From: Ectothiorhodospiraceae bacterium | GTDB lineage: Bacteria; Pseudomonadota; Gammaproteobacteria; Nitrococcales; Aquisalimonadaceae | Direction: 5' to 3' | DNA length: 64,000 nucleotides | NCBI GenBank assembly: GCA_020831885.1 | Contig: JAFIFU010000013.1 | Coordinates: 1 to 64,000, forward strand | Part shown: positions 25,412-60,480 of the stretch, in pieces | How positions within the stretch are numbered: the first letter of the stretch is position 1 | How the letters are laid out: each line of letters begins with the position of its first letter | Translations under genes and position numbers: made by a program | The notes under the pieces: model-generated | Databases searched by the model: none | The model's input: only the letters and a program-made list of their open reading frames with translations | What the model was told of the DNA's origin: nothing

Positions 25412-25473
25412 CCAACACGCTGCAAAGCCAGAGCGCCATGAGAATCGATCAGCGCTTCCTTAACGACGGGGGC
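25412..25473 (+). repeat. Palindromic repeat family, half copy A
   Basis: ACACGCTGCAAAGCC followed by AGAGCGCCATGAGAATCG and ATCAGCGCTTCCTTAA matches the right end of the full copy at 49775-49955, lacking its internal GC block and left end. It lies between two divergent promoters rather than at a stop codon. Confidence 0.75.
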
Positions 25474-49774: not shown

Positions 49775-49955
49775 TTAAGGAAGCGCTGATCTATTCCCAT
49801 GGCGCTCTGGCTTTGCAGCGTGTCCGGGGGCAAGGCGCGGCTCGCAGGCAATGGCGAGCCCTTGGCAAGAGCCGCAACACCGCACCCGGACACGCTGCAA
49901 AGCCCCGCAGGGCGGGCCCTTCGAGCACCATGGCAATAGATCAGCGCTTCCTTAA
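49775..49955. mobile_element. Full copy of a MITE-like palindromic element (copy C)
   Basis: 181 bp, no coding capacity. The left end TTAAGGAAGCGCTGATCTAT and the reverse complement of the right end are identical over the first 21 bases; the inverted repeats continue through CCATGG and GCTC for about 33 bp with two mismatches. A second inverted pair lies inside (GGCTTTGCAGCGTGTCCGGG / CCCGGACACGCTGCAAAGCC), making almost the whole element palindromic. No target-site duplication is obvious. Its right end TTAA supplies the stop codon of the convergent gene at 49952. Confidence 0.85.
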
Positions 49956-50257
49956 CCGCCGCCACGCTGAAACCGGCGGTCGAAGTGGCCCAGGAATGCG
50001 GCCCGTTGATCGGCGGTGAATCCGTGGAACTCGATGCTCACCTCGGTGCTGGGCAAGGACAGCATGGCGATACGGCGGCACTGCTCAGCCGCCAGCCGGA
50101 TGCGCAGCCACCGATCCGGCCAGCGGGCGATGACCGTGGTGTCGTGTACTTCCACCGCTGCATCGTCGAACAGCCCGGGGAGAATGCGATGAAACTCGGC
50201 ATGGGTCAGGCCCATGTCCTTGCGCACCGTTTCCGCCGACACGGTCAACGGGCTCAC
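49952..50257 (-). CDS. Unknown 101-residue protein downstream of the AOR cluster
   Basis: Begins at a GTG that overlaps the stop of the MoaD-like gene (GTGA), so it is translationally coupled; a GTG at 50278 is the alternative. Sequence features: LTVSAETVRKDMGLTHAEF, DTTVIARWPDRWLRIRLAAEQCRRIAML and a C-terminal HGFTADQRAAFLGHFDRRF. No membrane segment and no known family. Because it ends the aor operon, it may assist tungsten-cofactor maturation (inference). Its TAA stop is provided by the adjacent palindromic element. Confidence 0.6.
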   Translation of the reverse strand: MSPLTVSAETVRKDMGLTHAEFHRILPGLFDDAAVEVHDTTVIARWPDRWLRIRLAAEQCRRIAMLSLPSTEVSIEFHGFTADQRAAFLGHFDRRFQRGGG

Positions 50258-50508
50258 CCTCCGGCAACCGGTGGCCACACGGCGAACACGTCCCCCTCGG
50301 ACAACACGGGCTGCTCCCGCCGTGACGGCGGCACATATTCTCCGTTGATCATCACGAGGTGGGCGAGCCCGTCAGGCACCTTGAGCCGTTGGATCAGTTG
50401 CGTCGGGGTGGTGTCCTCCGCCACGTCCAGCTCGAAACCCTCATGCGGCTTCACGCCGTCAGGCATCAGTTCGCTCAGACTGGCGAACAGTTTCACTCGG
50501 ATTCGCAT
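50254..50508 (-). CDS. MoaD/ThiS-like sulfur carrier
   Basis: 84 residues, beta-grasp fold, ending in the obligatory Gly-Gly (PPVAGG), which is activated as thiocarboxylate to donate sulfur. MRIRVKLFASLSELMPDG and VMINGEYVPPSRREQ are typical. A MoaD-like protein next to aldehyde ferredoxin oxidoreductase genes (aorD position) is thought to serve the dithiolene sulfurs of the metallopterin. 59 bp after the FAD subunit gene. Confidence 0.9.
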   Translation of the reverse strand: MRIRVKLFASLSELMPDGVKPHEGFELDVAEDTTPTQLIQRLKVPDGLAHLVMINGEYVPPSRREQPVLSEGDVFAVWPPVAGG

Positions 50509-50567
50509 GAATTATCCAGTCGCAGCTCCACGGAGCGGAGCGGCACGCGGCCGCCCCGCCCGGGTGG

Positions 50568-51842
50568 TCAGGACAGCACCGACGCGTTGTGGCCGATGGC
50601 CTGCGTTCTGGCCAGGTAGGCCTCCATGATCCGCGTGGGATCATCCTTGAGTTTCTCTTTCCAGCCGCCGAGGCGGACACGGCTCTGGATCAGCCCCCGG
50701 ATCACCCCCACGTGTTCCGTGAGCCCCAGGGCGCTGGCGCCTACCAGGACGTCATCCTGGAACTGCAGCTTCAGGTAACGAAAGCGATCCGGCTCGTGCA
50801 GTTCCACCGAGTCGCCACCATCCACCCCCATCCACAGCCCGAAGGACGATGAGATCAGGCCCAGGGTGTCGAGCACATTCATGTTCACGCTACCGCGGAA
50901 CTGCTGGGTGCGGCCCGCCATGTTGCTGGCGGCGATACGTCCATGATCGGCCGCTGTGGGCTGCACGGCATGGACCGAGAACTCCCCGGTGGAAAAATCC
51001 AGCCCCTGGGCCACATCCCCCGCGGCATAGATGCCGTCCACCGATGACCGCAGGTGGCGGTCCACCAGAACGCCTTGGTCCAGCTTGACGCCGGTACCGT
51101 CCAGGAACTCGGTATTGGACTGAACTCCGACGGCCACAATGACCAGATCCGCCGGCACCGGGTCCCCATGATCCAGCTTGACCGACAGGGGGTGTTCACC
51201 GTTGCCTGCATCCACCGCTTCCACCTTGGTGGACGTGTGCACTGTCACCCCCTTCGACTCGCACCAGCGCTTGATCAGGCCGCCGGCGGTGTCATCCATC
51301 ATGCGGGGGACCATCCGGTTCTGCTGCTCCACCACCGTGAGCCGGGTCTTCCGCAAGGCCAAGGATTCCAGGATGATGCAGCCGATAAAGCCGGCGCCGA
51401 TCAGCACCACATGAGCACCGGGTTCCGCCCGGGAAACAATCCGACGGGCATCCTCCAGGGTCCAGCAGGTATGCACACCGTCCCGGTCCATACCGGGAAT
51501 CGGGGGTATCAACGGACGGGCACCGGTGGCCAGCAGCAGGCGATCGTAATCCATCCGCTCGCCGCCCCTGAGCTCCAATTGGCGTGCCCCGGGGTCCACC
51601 TTTTCCACCCAGGCGTCGGTCCTGACCTCAATGCCGTTGCTCTGGAAATGATCCTGCCCCTTGCGCAGGTAGGTGCCCTCTTCACCGATCTGGTCGATCA
51701 GGAGATACGGGATCGCCATCCGGGAATAGGGTGGTTCCGGTTCCCCGCTGAGCAGAACAACATCGGACTGCGGGTCGTACTTGCGCAGGTGTTCAGCCGC
51801 AACCACACCGGCCGGCCCCGCGCCCACGATCACGTGCTTCAT
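50568..51842 (-). CDS. aorC: FAD/NAD-dependent oxidoreductase, AorC-like subunit
   Basis: 424 residues. FAD motif HVIVGAGPAGVVAAEHL at the N-terminus, NAD(P) motif VVLIGAGFIGCIILESLAL near residue 149, and the second FAD motif VDGIYAAGDVAQG near residue 275, as in NADH:rubredoxin or nitrite reductase-type enzymes. Directly downstream of aorB, it corresponds to the FAD subunit that lets AorABC enzymes use NAD+ (Aromatoleum). ATG 51842 with GGAAAG upstream is chosen. Confidence 0.85.
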   Translation of the reverse strand: MKHVIVGAGPAGVVAAEHLRKYDPQSDVVLLSGEPEPPYSRMAIPYLLIDQIGEEGTYLRKGQDHFQSNGIEVRTDAWVEKVDPGARQLELRGGERMDYDRLLLATGARPLIPPIPGMDRDGVHTCWTLEDARRIVSRAEPGAHVVLIGAGFIGCIILESLALRKTRLTVVEQQNRMVPRMMDDTAGGLIKRWCESKGVTVHTSTKVEAVDAGNGEHPLSVKLDHGDPVPADLVIVAVGVQSNTEFLDGTGVKLDQGVLVDRHLRSSVDGIYAAGDVAQGLDFSTGEFSVHAVQPTAADHGRIAASNMAGRTQQFRGSVNMNVLDTLGLISSSFGLWMGVDGGDSVELHEPDRFRYLKLQFQDDVLVGASALGLTEHVGVIRGLIQSRVRLGGWKEKLKDDPTRIMEAYLARTQAIGHNASVLS

Positions 51843-51871
51843 GCTCTTTCCTCCGCAACGCGGGCCGGGGC

Positions 51872-53722
51872 TCAAAGCCCCAGCCGCTGGCGAGTTTCAG
51901 GGGTCAGTTCGCCGGTTGGGGTCCAGCCGCGAAGTGCGTAGTACTTCGGCAACATCTCATCCAACCGATTGACTGAACCCTTCGCCGGTCCCACGTTGGC
52001 GGCCTCCTTCAGCAGCCGCGTCGGCAGGGTATCGTCCTTGGCGGTAAGCCCCGCGCGGAGGTTGAAGTCCCGCTCCAGGTTCCAGATCCGTTCACCCACC
52101 TCCAACAGGTATTCCGTGGACCAGTCACCCTCACAGGCCGCATCGATCTGCGGCGCGATGTCGTCCAGGGTCCAGGCGAAGGTGGTGAACACGCAGATAC
52201 CGGCCGAATCCACAACGGCGGTTGCGTCCTGGAAGGCCTTGGTCAGCTCCGGCTTGCCCTCGGTACTGTGGGGATCGGTTTTCTCCGGAATGCCCAGCAC
52301 CTCGGAGGACACGGTGTAACCGCGCAGGTGACAGGCGCCGCGGTTGGAGGTGGCGTAGGCCAGCCCCATGCCCTGGATTCCGCGTGGGTCGTAGGCCGGG
52401 AATTCCTGTCCTTTCACCGTCATGGACAGTTCCGGATGACCGTATTTCTCGCACAGACGCTTGGAGCCGAGTCCGAGATCCTTGCCGAAGCCTTCTCCCT
52501 TCATGGTCACCTCGGCCGCCCAGCTCAGGGCCTCCGCGGATCCGAATTTCAGCTCGACACCGCCGGTGTGCTCTTTGGTGATGACCCCCATGCCGTACAA
52601 CTCCATGGCCGCAGCCACCGTGGAGCCGAAGGAGATGGGATCCACCCCGTCCTCGTTGCAGAGGAAGTTCACATAGGTGAGGCAATCCAGATCGTCCACA
52701 CCGGTGTCGGTACCAAGGGCCCAGGCCGCTTCGTACTCCAGACCACCGGACGCATGCCAGTATTCCGGCTTGTTCTTCACGGTGAAGTGGCCTTTGTCCA
52801 CGGTGGAGATGCGACCGCAGGCGATAGTGCATCCGAAGCATGCGGCGTTGGTCGTCAGGTTGGGCTTGCCGTCGGTGGGACGCGGCTCGTGCATGGCTTC
52901 GCCGGAGATCTTGTGCGCGCCCTCGAACTGCACCTCCCGCATGTTCCGCGTGGGCAGCGCCCCCAGCTCGTTGATGACGTTCATCAGTACCTGGGTACCA
53001 TACGTCGCCATGCCCTGGCCGGTGACGGGGTTTTGCTGCAACACCTGCTTCCGTTTCTCCGTCTCCTGCAGAAACCGGATCGGATCCTTGATGTTGCCGA
53101 CACCCTTGGTGCCACGCACGGCCACCGCCTTCAGGTTCTTGGAGGCCATGACCGTGCCGACCCCTGAACGACCAGCCGCCCGGTGCAGATCGTTGACGAC
53201 GGCCGCATACAGGGCGCCGTGCTCCGCCGCACGCCCCACGCAGGAGATACGCACCTGCGGATCCTGCAGCTCGTTATGGATCAGCTTGTCCGCTTCCCAG
53301 ACGGACTTGCCCCACAGATGCTCTGCGGAACGCAGCTCCGCCGTCTCATTCTCCAGGTAGAGGTAAACCGGCGTGGGGGATTTCCCCTCGAAAATGATCA
53401 TGTCCCAGCCGGCGTTCTTGATCTCGGCACCGATGAACCCGCCGGAATTGGAGCAGGCGATGGCGCCGGTGAGCGGGCTCTTGGTAACCACCGAGTAACG
53501 TCCGCCGGTGGACGCCATGGTGCCGGTCAGCGGCCCGGTGGTCATGATCAGCTTGTTCTCAGGAGACAGGGCGTCGACCTTCGGGTCGATCTCCTCCACC
53601 AGATATTTTGAAGCCAGCCCGCGCTGTCCCAGGTATTGCCGGGCCCATTCCATGTTCAGCGGCTCTTTCGAAACCTTCCCGTCGGTCAGGTTCACGCGCA
53701 GTACGTTTCCGGTCCAGGCCAT
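51872..53722 (-). CDS. aorB: Aldehyde ferredoxin oxidoreductase, catalytic tungsten subunit (AorB-like)
   Basis: 616 residues, full length. Oxidises aldehydes to acids with a tungsten bis-metallopterin site. The N-terminus MAWTGNVLRVNLTDG and the domain order are those of the AOR family. The [4Fe-4S] ligands are in NAACFGCTIACGRIS near residue 290 and a distal cysteine in DSAGICVF near residue 505; pterin-binding loops include GRSGVGTVMASKNLKAVAV and ATSNRGACHLRG. Starts 1 bp after aorA, so the complex is made from one operon. Confidence 0.93.
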   Translation of the reverse strand: MAWTGNVLRVNLTDGKVSKEPLNMEWARQYLGQRGLASKYLVEEIDPKVDALSPENKLIMTTGPLTGTMASTGGRYSVVTKSPLTGAIACSNSGGFIGAEIKNAGWDMIIFEGKSPTPVYLYLENETAELRSAEHLWGKSVWEADKLIHNELQDPQVRISCVGRAAEHGALYAAVVNDLHRAAGRSGVGTVMASKNLKAVAVRGTKGVGNIKDPIRFLQETEKRKQVLQQNPVTGQGMATYGTQVLMNVINELGALPTRNMREVQFEGAHKISGEAMHEPRPTDGKPNLTTNAACFGCTIACGRISTVDKGHFTVKNKPEYWHASGGLEYEAAWALGTDTGVDDLDCLTYVNFLCNEDGVDPISFGSTVAAAMELYGMGVITKEHTGGVELKFGSAEALSWAAEVTMKGEGFGKDLGLGSKRLCEKYGHPELSMTVKGQEFPAYDPRGIQGMGLAYATSNRGACHLRGYTVSSEVLGIPEKTDPHSTEGKPELTKAFQDATAVVDSAGICVFTTFAWTLDDIAPQIDAACEGDWSTEYLLEVGERIWNLERDFNLRAGLTAKDDTLPTRLLKEAANVGPAKGSVNRLDEMLPKYYALRGWTPTGELTPETRQRLGL

Positions 53723-53723
53723 G

Positions 53724-54257
53724 TCACATCCCTCCCTGACCGCTCAGATACACGTTGAGGGGCTTCTCTCGCGGCGGGTTGGTGCGCGGCGGTGCGGCAT
53801 CAGGCGACTGCTGGGCCCATGAGCGCATCCGTTCCATTCCCGTTTCACTGGCATCCACATAGGTGATGGCACCCGTGGGACAGGCTTTGGCGCACCAGGG
53901 ATCGCCGCCACAGAGATCACACTTGATGACCTTGCCGCTGTCGGCCTCGTAGTTGACGGTTCCGAACGGGCAGGCAATGGTGCACACCTTGCAGCCGACG
54001 CAGACGTCCTCCAGCACGTTCTTGGCACCGGTGGCCATATCCACCACGATGGCCTCCACCGGACAAGCGTGCATGCACCAGGCCTCGTCACACTGGGTGC
54101 AGGTGTAGGGAGCGAAACGACCCTCCTCATGGAAGGTGAACACCTTGATCCGGGACTTCGCCGGATTGAAAGCCCCGGTGTTTTCGTAGGAACAGGCCAT
54201 CTCGCACTGCAGACAGCCGGTACACTTCTCGGGCTCCAGCTTCAATGCCTTAAGCAT
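53724..54257 (-). CDS. aorA: Four-cluster ferredoxin-like subunit (AorA-like)
   Basis: 177 residues with four 4Fe-4S motifs in the DMSO-reductase-B / HycB arrangement: CTGCLQCEMACS, CTQCDEAWCMHACP, CVGCKVCTIACP and CDLCGGDPWCAKACP. It carries electrons between the tungsten subunit and the FAD subunit, and can polymerise into a filament in Aromatoleum AorAB. First gene of the minus-strand aorABC-moaD-like-unknown cluster. A SAR-rich tail (PDAAPPRTNPP) follows. Confidence 0.92.
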   Translation of the reverse strand: MLKALKLEPEKCTGCLQCEMACSYENTGAFNPAKSRIKVFTFHEEGRFAPYTCTQCDEAWCMHACPVEAIVVDMATGAKNVLEDVCVGCKVCTIACPFGTVNYEADSGKVIKCDLCGGDPWCAKACPTGAITYVDASETGMERMRSWAQQSPDAAPPRTNPPREKPLNVYLSGQGGM

Positions 54258-54454: not shown

Positions 54455-54495
54455 GGGAAGCGCTGACTTATTCCCATGGCGCTCTGGCCTTGCTA
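54455..54495 (-). repeat. Palindromic repeat family, half copy D at the SDR stop codon
   Basis: On the minus strand the SDR stop codon TAG is followed directly by CAAGGCCAGAGCGCCATG and GGAATAAGTCAGCGCTTCC, matching the terminal part of the full copy at 49775-49955 and half copies A and E. The stop codon is at the inner edge of the element. Confidence 0.7.
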
Positions 54496-55176
54496 ACGCA
54501 CCGCCCAGCCGCCGCTCACCGGGAACACCTGCCCGACGAAACAATCCGCCGCGGCGGTACAGAGGAAAGCGGCGGTCATGGCATCCTCCCGTGGCGACAC
54601 CAGGCGCCCCAAGGGGACCTCGCGCTTGAGACGATCCTGGAATCTGGGATTGCTCTGAACCTCTTCCGGGAAATAGGTCGGGTTGTCGACAAAGTTCTGA
54701 GCGATGGCATTCAACTGAATGTTATCCGCCGCCAACTCCACACCCGCGGCCTGGACATAGGCCAGTTGCGCCCCCCGGGCTGCGCTGTAGGTGGAGGCTC
54801 GCCGCATGCCGCGCAAGGCCGACGCACTGCCGATAACCAGAATCTTGCCACCGCCCCGCGCCTTCATGCCTGGCACCGCCGCACGGACCAGACGGGGGAG
54901 CGGATCCACCAGGTGCGCGAACACGTCCTCCCATTCCGCATCGGTGACATCCGCCACCCGGGTACTGGGTGCGGGGATCGCCAGATTGGCGATGAGCGCG
55001 TCAATGTCACCGCTCTCCGCGACCACCGCCGCGGGGGCTTCGGGATCTGTCAGGTCCCGGGCATCAGCCACCACGGTGGCGCCCAGCTCCTGGAACACCT
55101 CGCAGAACGCGGGCCCCATGAAGCTGTCCGCCTGGGTTACCAGAACACGCTTGCCCGCGACATCACACAACGTCAT
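54493..55176 (-). CDS. Halohydrin dehalogenase-like short-chain dehydrogenase homologue
   Basis: 227 residues, SDR fold. The cofactor-binding TGxxxGxG is replaced by T14-QADS-F19-M-G21, which equals the T-x4-F/Y-x-G motif of halohydrin dehalogenases. The catalytic Ser-Tyr-Lys is Ser-Tyr-Arg: S117, Y130, R134, with exactly 12 residues between S and Y and 3 between Y and R, the second HHDH motif. NFVDNPTYFP (161-170) resembles the halide-pocket loop of HheA/HheB enzymes, and the C-terminus is GQVFPVSGGW. Reversible dehalogenation of vicinal halo-alcohols to epoxides is expected; NAD(P) use is unlikely. Stands alone, between aor genes and the transporter. Confidence 0.8.
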   Translation of the reverse strand: MTLCDVAGKRVLVTQADSFMGPAFCEVFQELGATVVADARDLTDPEAPAAVVAESGDIDALIANLAIPAPSTRVADVTDAEWEDVFAHLVDPLPRLVRAAVPGMKARGGGKILVIGSASALRGMRRASTYSAARGAQLAYVQAAGVELAADNIQLNAIAQNFVDNPTYFPEEVQSNPRFQDRLKREVPLGRLVSPREDAMTAAFLCTAAADCFVGQVFPVSGGWAVR

Positions 55177-55239
55177 CGCGCCGCTCCTCCGTCTTGAACT
55201 GTTATCGACCAGTGTAGTCCGCCAACCCTGCCCCGGATC

Positions 55240-57090
55240 CTACAGCGGCCACACCCAAAGCAGCATGGGCACGGCGACTGCCACCACCAGCACTTCCAAC
55301 GGCAGCCCCAGACGCCAGTAATCACCGAAACGGAACCCGCCGGGTCCCAGGATGAGGGTGTTGTTCTGGTGACCGATGGGCGTCAGAAAGGCGCAGGACG
55401 CCCCCACCGCCACCGCCATCAGGTAAGGATCCGAGCTCACCCCCAGTTGCCCGGCGGTGCTGATCGCGATGGGGCACATCACGGCCGCTGTGGCCGCATT
55501 GTTCATCATGTCCGAGAGGAACATGGTGACCACCAGCACCAACGCCAGCGCGGCAACGGTATTGCCCTGCGCCAGTGTTTCCAGCAGGACAGCCGCCAGC
55601 AGATCCGCCGCGCCCGTCACCTCCATGGCCCCCGCCACCGGTATCAGGGCCGCAAGCAGCACAATCACCGGCCAGTCCACCGCATCGTACACGGCACGGG
55701 GCGATACCACGCGGGTAACCATCACCGCCAGCACACCGGCGGCGAACGCCACGGCCGCCGGCAACAGACCGAACGCAGCGCCGGCGACCGCCATGACCAT
55801 GATCATGCTGGCCATCACCGCCTTCCGCTTGTCAGGAATGCGCACCTCCCGCTCGGCCAGCGGTACGCAACCGAAGTTCGACGAAAACTCCCGCAGGGAC
55901 TCCGGGGGCCCCTGCAGCAGCAGCACATCCCCTTCCTTGAGCTGCATCCGGCGCAGACGGGCAATGGAGCGGGTACCCTGCCGGGACACCGCCAGCAGAT
56001 TCACCCCGAACCGGCTGCGCAACTGCACGTCGGTGGCGGATCGCTGACTGAGCGCAGAGCCAGGCAATACCGCCATTTCCATAACCACCACCTCGTCCGC
56101 GGTTACCTTCTCGGCCTCGTTGTTGTTCTCTTCATCGTTCGCCGGGTCCCCGTCCGCACTCCCCGGTTCCCCCTTTTCATCATCCTGGTTCTCTTCCTTT
56201 TCCACCGCCTCTTCCAGCTTCAGGCCGAGATTGGACAGCAGAGCGCCCAGGGCCTCCGGCTCCGCCTCGATCAGCAGAATATCCCCGCGCAGCACTTTGC
56301 GATTCGGATGCGGCGCGTGCAGCCGGACCTCGTTGCGGATCAGGCCGATGACCTGGGCATCGGCTTCCTCCAGTTCCTGCTCCACGTCCCGGAGTGTCTG
56401 CCCCCGCACCCGGGATTTTGACGTGATCCGGACTTCGGTGAGGTAGGCGCTGGTCTCGAAGCCACCGACATCCGCCTGCTCCCGCCTTGGCACCAGGCGC
56501 CAGCCCACCAGTGCGACGAAGATCACACCCGTAAGCGCAACCACGCCCCCGACGGGAGTGAAATCGAACATGGAAAACGAGCTGGGGCCCACATCCGCCC
56601 GGAAACCGGAGACGATGAGGTTCGGCGGCGTCCCGACCATCGTGGTCATTCCGCCGAGAATGGAGCCGAAAGCAAGTGGCATCAGCACCTGGCCGGCCGG
56701 TAACTCCTGCTTCCGCGCGATCTGGATAGCCACAGGCATGAGCAGCGCCAGCGCACCGACATTGTTCATGAAGCCGGAGAGCAGCGCCGCGATACCGGTC
56801 AGCGCCGCGATGGTCAATGTGGGCCCGGCGCCGGAAGGCAGCAGACGCCGGGTCAGGACGTCAACAACCCCCGAGACTTGCAGGCTGTGACTGAGTATCA
56901 GCACACAGGCCACGGTGACCACCGCCGGATGACCAAATCCCGCGAATGCCTCCCCGGGACGGATCAACCCCGCCAGCACACAGGCCAGGAGCGCACCCAT
57001 GGCGACCATGTCGTGCCGCCACCGCCCCCAGAGAAACATGGCCACGGTGGCAAGCAGGATGCCCAGAACGATTAGCTGATCAACGGTCAC
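55240..57090 (-). CDS. DASS/SLC13 family transporter with two cytoplasmic RCK_C domains
   Basis: 616 residues. Two hydrophobic halves (about 1-200 and 430-616) with the CitM/SLC13 repeats FMNNVGALALLMPVAIQIA and MNNAATAAVMCPIAI, each followed by a proline-containing loop (VGTPPNLIVSG, LTPIGHQNNTLI). Between them lie two TrkA-C/RCK_C domains (about 215-300 and 335-420). They are separated by a highly acidic linker of about 30 residues (KEENQDDEKGEPGS, NDEENNNEAEK). Likely sodium-coupled anion (sulfate, dicarboxylate) transporter; substrate not readable. Confidence 0.88.
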   Translation of the reverse strand: MTVDQLIVLGILLATVAMFLWGRWRHDMVAMGALLACVLAGLIRPGEAFAGFGHPAVVTVACVLILSHSLQVSGVVDVLTRRLLPSGAGPTLTIAALTGIAALLSGFMNNVGALALLMPVAIQIARKQELPAGQVLMPLAFGSILGGMTTMVGTPPNLIVSGFRADVGPSSFSMFDFTPVGGVVALTGVIFVALVGWRLVPRREQADVGGFETSAYLTEVRITSKSRVRGQTLRDVEQELEEADAQVIGLIRNEVRLHAPHPNRKVLRGDILLIEAEPEALGALLSNLGLKLEEAVEKEENQDDEKGEPGSADGDPANDEENNNEAEKVTADEVVVMEMAVLPGSALSQRSATDVQLRSRFGVNLLAVSRQGTRSIARLRRMQLKEGDVLLLQGPPESLREFSSNFGCVPLAEREVRIPDKRKAVMASMIMVMAVAGAAFGLLPAAVAFAAGVLAVMVTRVVSPRAVYDAVDWPVIVLLAALIPVAGAMEVTGAADLLAAVLLETLAQGNTVAALALVLVVTMFLSDMMNNAATAAVMCPIAISTAGQLGVSSDPYLMAVAVGASCAFLTPIGHQNNTLILGPGGFRFGDYWRLGLPLEVLVVAVAVPMLLWVWPL

Positions 57091-60372: not shown

Positions 60373-60480
60373 ACAAGGCGGCGTTCGCAGACAATAGCGA
60401 GCCCTTGGCAAGAGCCGGAACACCGCCCCCGGGCACGCTGTAAAGCCAGAGCACCACGGGAATCGATCAGCGCTTCCTTA
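60373..60480. repeat. Palindromic repeat family, right-half copy E
   Basis: Matches the internal GC block and right end of the full copy: GCGAGCCCTTGGCAAGAGCC is identical, CACGCTGTAAAGCC differs by one base, and ATCAGCGCTTCCTTA is the terminal block. The left third is missing. Its terminal TTA is the complement of the TAA stop codon of the 602-residue gene. Confidence 0.8.

Follow-up and report, generated by a model that had tools for sequence, protein, structure and literature searches.

A gene for a predicted subtype D halohydrin dehalogenase beside a tungsten aldehyde oxidoreductase operon in an Ectothiorhodospiraceae bacterium

Background

Halohydrin dehalogenases (HHDHs) can be recognized among proteins of the short-chain dehydrogenase/reductase (SDR) fold by two fingerprint motifs, T-x4-[FY]-x-G (motif 1) and S-x12-Y-x3-R (motif 2), as defined in earlier studies (PMC4989007, PMC11976700). 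This motif pair yielded 37 new HHDHs, a representative selection of which was active throughout (19/19), and the enzymes HheD to HheD6 have been verified experimentally (PMC4989007).

Several described HHDHs resemble the protein reported here, which is encoded within a 64,000-nucleotide stretch of contig JAFIFU010000013.1 (hereafter the window). HheD2 (7b73), from the marine gammaproteobacterium HTCC2207, has the same motifs and catalytic triad and is the best structural match, although the genomic surroundings of its gene (locus L061) differ from those in the window. HheD8 (8xxb) shares subtype and motifs and lies on a longer branch inside the HheD clade. HheB of Corynebacterium sp. N-1074 (4zd6) is similar to the window protein in its short length and its fold, but has Tyr in motif 1 where the window protein has Phe, and is without the NPTYFP segment. 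HheA2 and HheC (1zmo, 1pwx) carry both HHDH motifs, and HheA2 has NPTYFP too, but they share about 30% identity or less with the window protein and form a separate branch of the HHDH tree.

The hheD gene and its fingerprint motifs

The open reading frame begins with an ATG at 55176 and its stop codon ends at 54493. The gene and the features read from its sequence are as follows.

54493..55176, minus strand: predicted HheD-type halohydrin dehalogenase gene, 227 aa (ORF, PDB search, tree)
55184..55190, minus strand: Shine-Dalgarno-like GGAGGAG, 7 nt before the hheD ATG (direct reading)
55114..55137, minus strand: HHDH motif 1, T14-x4-F19-x-G21, nucleophile pocket (pattern scan)
54775..54828, minus strand: HHDH motif 2, S117-x12-Y130-x3-R134, catalytic triad (pattern scan)
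54667..54684, minus strand: NPTYFP segment, residues 165-170 (HheD alignment; common to HheA2)
54508..54534, minus strand: C-terminal GQVF...GG segment, residues 215-223 (HheD alignment)

The first-pass annotation had proposed that both HHDH fingerprints are present in this frame, and the pattern scan confirms the frame and both motifs at the residues it named: motif 1 occurs once in the protein, at residue 14 (TQADSFMG), and motif 2 once, at residue 117 (SASALRGMRRASTYSAAR). The two motifs appear together in 0.032% of composition-preserving shuffles. Within the tree set they are both found in 13 of 13 HheD sequences from other genomes and in all five reference HHDHs, and neither is found in Escherichia coli FabG or in 11 SDRs sampled from the same and related genomes. 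Across 47 HheD relatives, Ser117, Tyr130 and Arg134 are invariant, as are F19 and G21 of motif 1, with T14 at least 90% conserved; NPTYFP and GQVF...GG are likewise present and invariant or near-invariant.

Phylogenetic placement and loss of the cofactor site

A sequence search of the PDB returned HheD2 (7b73) as the top solved-structure match (E 2e-100, approximately 69% identity over the full length), along with HheD8 (8xxb; E 7e-81, 60% identity) and HheB (4zd6; E 2e-50, 43% identity). Identity to HheA was 30%, and HheG scored far lower (65 bits versus 338). In the maximum-likelihood tree, the window protein falls within a clade of 15 HheD sequences that includes HheD2 and HheD8 (support 98/97), with HheB as the sister of this clade (100/98). 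HheA2, HheC and 6a41 group next, and a further split divides all HHDHs from the 12 SDRs (100/97). The HheA2 and HheC sequences used for the tree match the PDB chains over their full length, and those of HheB, 8xxb and 6a41 were taken from printed search alignments. E. coli FabG clusters, as it should, with a FabG-like SDR encoded in the window's own genome. By sequence, the window gene is thus placed as a canonical HheD-subtype HHDH in a tree whose references cover subtypes A, B, C and D. The likeness to HheA and HheB suggested earlier holds in part: NPTYFP is indeed common to HheA2, but the subtype is D, and HheB is only the sister subtype. The HheD-like gene is single in its genome, where the next best of 36 SDR matches reaches 38% identity.

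The nicotinamide and adenine sites of SDRs comprise the Gly-rich loop together with NNAG and the region after beta-2. When the window protein is aligned with FabG, the Gly-rich loop TGASRGIG corresponds to TQADSFMG, in which two glycines are gone, NNAG corresponds to ANLA, and approximately 20-25 residues after beta-2 are missing; nor does the protein match the classical SDR signature of a TGxxx[AG]xG loop plus YxxxK. By alignment, the nicotinamide cofactor site is lost. The remainder of the former cofactor region matches the halide pocket known from HHDHs (PMC4989007, PMC11976700).

HHDHs are homotetramers. An AlphaFold model of the monomer (pLDDT 85, pTM 0.84) matches HheD2 (Z 29.9), HheD8 (29.3) and HheB (28.7) more closely than NAD(P)-dependent SDRs (25.6 or lower). 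The 8xxb structure is that of an HheD8 triple mutant with bound chloride. Model confidence is low in the active-site loop (residues 119-124) and at the C-terminus, which limits how well the model defines the pocket shape.

These results bear on a competing explanation, in which an NAD(P)-dependent SDR has simply lost its catalytic lysine and looks like an HHDH by coincidence. Generic SDR family models do match the window protein, as expected of any protein with the SDR fold, but the tree parts it from the 12 SDRs (100/97) and nests it in HheD, it is 69% identical to HheD2, and its cofactor-binding features are lost. Such a chance resemblance is extremely improbable, and an NAD(P)-dependent identity is already refuted at the sequence level by the tree, the identity and the loss of the cofactor site. 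A phylogeny against NAD(P)-dependent SDRs had been named in advance as the analysis that could overturn the assignment; it puts the gene with the HHDHs, within the HheD subclade. We are confident that the protein is a further member of HheD, a sound identification of ordinary novelty given that the crystal structure of a close relative is already published.

Proposed reaction and natural role

By analogy with characterised relatives, from which both reaction and mechanism are drawn, the gene very probably encodes a cofactor-independent subtype D halohydrin dehalogenase (probability approximately 95%). In the proposed mechanism, Arg134 would activate Tyr130, which, with help from Ser117, would take the proton from the hydroxyl group of a vicinal haloalcohol. 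The haloalcohol would then close to an epoxide and expel the halide into a pocket lined by T14, F19 and G21, the site where the ancestral SDR would have held its nicotinamide. In the reverse direction, epoxides would be opened by halide, azide, cyanide or nitrite.

The most economical reading of the natural role, which is a guess, would be the scavenging or detoxification of small haloalcohols or epoxides. The genome contains no epoxide hydrolase of the EHN type (PF06441), the one family that the search covered, and for this reason no obvious downstream step is visible. It is also conceivable, though rather unlikely, that the natural job of HheD is anion-driven epoxide opening for detoxification, or another reaction altogether, with dehalogenation as a side activity. 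A published review leaves other physiological functions possible for HHDHs because only two known HHDH genes share an operon with an epoxide hydrolase (PMC4989007), and the neighbours of hheD vary from locus to locus. Such a role would be compatible with the HheD assignment as best explanation and would not oppose it.

Gene neighbourhood in the window and in the genus

The genes flanking hheD in the window lie on the same strand.

55240..57090, minus strand: anion transporter of the DASS/CitMHS type carrying TrkA_C domains, 64 bp from hheD on its upstream side
53724..54257, minus strand: aorA-like iron-sulfur (ferredoxin-like) protein, 236 bp from hheD on its downstream side
51872..53722, minus strand: tungsten aldehyde oxidoreductase, aorB-like (AFOR_N, AFOR_C)
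50568..51842, minus strand: FAD/NAD oxidoreductase, aorC-like
50254..50508, minus strand: small protein, aorD-like by position and MoaD-like by reading only

The downstream genes, with more than one small gene among them, belong to an operon like aorABCDE, for a tungsten aldehyde oxidoreductase of three subunits (49952-54257, minus strand). All three genomes of the genus have this operon, which is laid out as in Aromatoleum aromaticum (aorABCDE; PMC6365974). In congener G006, contig C49 starts inside hheD and runs on through contiguous genes for ferredoxin, aldehyde oxidoreductase and FAD protein; the transporter gene is truncated in this genome and sits on a different contig. In congener G007, one contig carries both the transporter gene and hheD, with a larger gap of approximately 1.6 kb between them, and a second contig carries the aor genes; both contigs have repeat half-sites close to their ends, and adjacency of hheD and aor is possible there. 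The aor operon thus adjoins hheD in two genomes of the genus and possibly in the third, a genus-level arrangement.

The window also contains a 181-bp palindromic repeat (49775-49955) with 33-nt terminal inverted arms and an inner 23-nt inverted pair. Half copies occur at 54456-54493 and near 25436-25459, one of them abutting the hheD stop codon, and a related copy lies near 60374-60480. The window's own genome contains 120 end half-sites of the repeat (62 forward and 58 reverse, against 0 for the control); G006 has 57 and G007 has 5, and none were found in three other genomes of the family. The repeat is of the MITE or REP kind, and several of its copies are at contig ends.

The adjacency raises the question of whether HheD and the AorABC-type enzyme form one pathway, leading from haloalcohol or epoxide through aldehyde to acid. 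The two genes share a strand 236 bp apart in the window and are contiguous in G006, and the repeat-bearing contig ends that carry hheD and aor in G007 allow adjacency but do not show it. Against this, aldehyde oxidoreductase genes were found at none of the 80 HheD loci examined elsewhere, some of them short, genomes G002 and G087 have both genes on different contigs, and a common chemical intermediate would need a further enzyme between the two. We consider such a pathway improbable. It is equally improbable that HheD has been recruited in this genus into a metabolic unit with the AorABC-type tungsten enzyme and the anion transporter.

Distribution and gene context across the family

The genome scan identified at least 80 genomes with hheD genes 68-76% identical to the window gene. 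The taxon labels of these 80 loci include Pseudomonadota, Myxococcota, Thermodesulfobacteriota, Chloroflexota and Bacteroidota; many of the loci come from metagenome bins, whose labels may be wrong. In an even draw of genomes from the class, hheD was present in 5 of 369, including the window's own genome. The rarity first ascribed to HHDHs needs revision accordingly: with at least 80 close homologues these enzymes are not very rare, and the subfamily is scattered. Such a patchy spread, together with varied neighbours, is as expected of a mobile or often-lost gene. A plasmid origin was considered and set aside, as PLSDB gave no strong match.

Neighbours at the HheD loci were clustered after calling genes with a composition-aware caller, and a Pfam scan was run on 94 flanking proteins. 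Neither analysis revealed a conserved partner of hheD across the family, only lineage-specific repeats, and the most frequent Pfam family beside hheD, alpha/beta hydrolase, accounts for 4 of the 94 proteins. The tungsten aldehyde oxidoreductase is absent from all 80 loci outside the genus, some of which are short. A family-wide link between hheD and aldehyde oxidoreductase is rejected on this count and on the unlinked genes in G002 and G087; the tungsten enzyme and anion transporter noted at first beside hheD are indeed its neighbours in the window, but at the level of the genus, not of the family.

Directly upstream of hheD and on the same strand, 15 loci among L019-L071, mostly from Comamonadaceae, have a gene that is glyoxalase I-like by reading. 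In this lineage, KDPG aldolase-like and phosphogluconate dehydratase-like genes usually lie downstream. The arrangement is a possible lineage-specific clue to HheD function.

Conclusions

Since no partner recurs across lineages at the 80 loci, gene context is so far silent on the role of D-type HHDHs, and the genome offers no convincing hint at what HheD does in nature. The survey of 80 HheD loci from diverse bacteria is nevertheless a useful negative result. Should a unit of HheD, AorABC and the transporter prove true, it would set the natural role of a D-type HHDH in a genomic context. The present analysis adds a well-supported HheD enzyme to the family, and one that may be useful as a biocatalyst.
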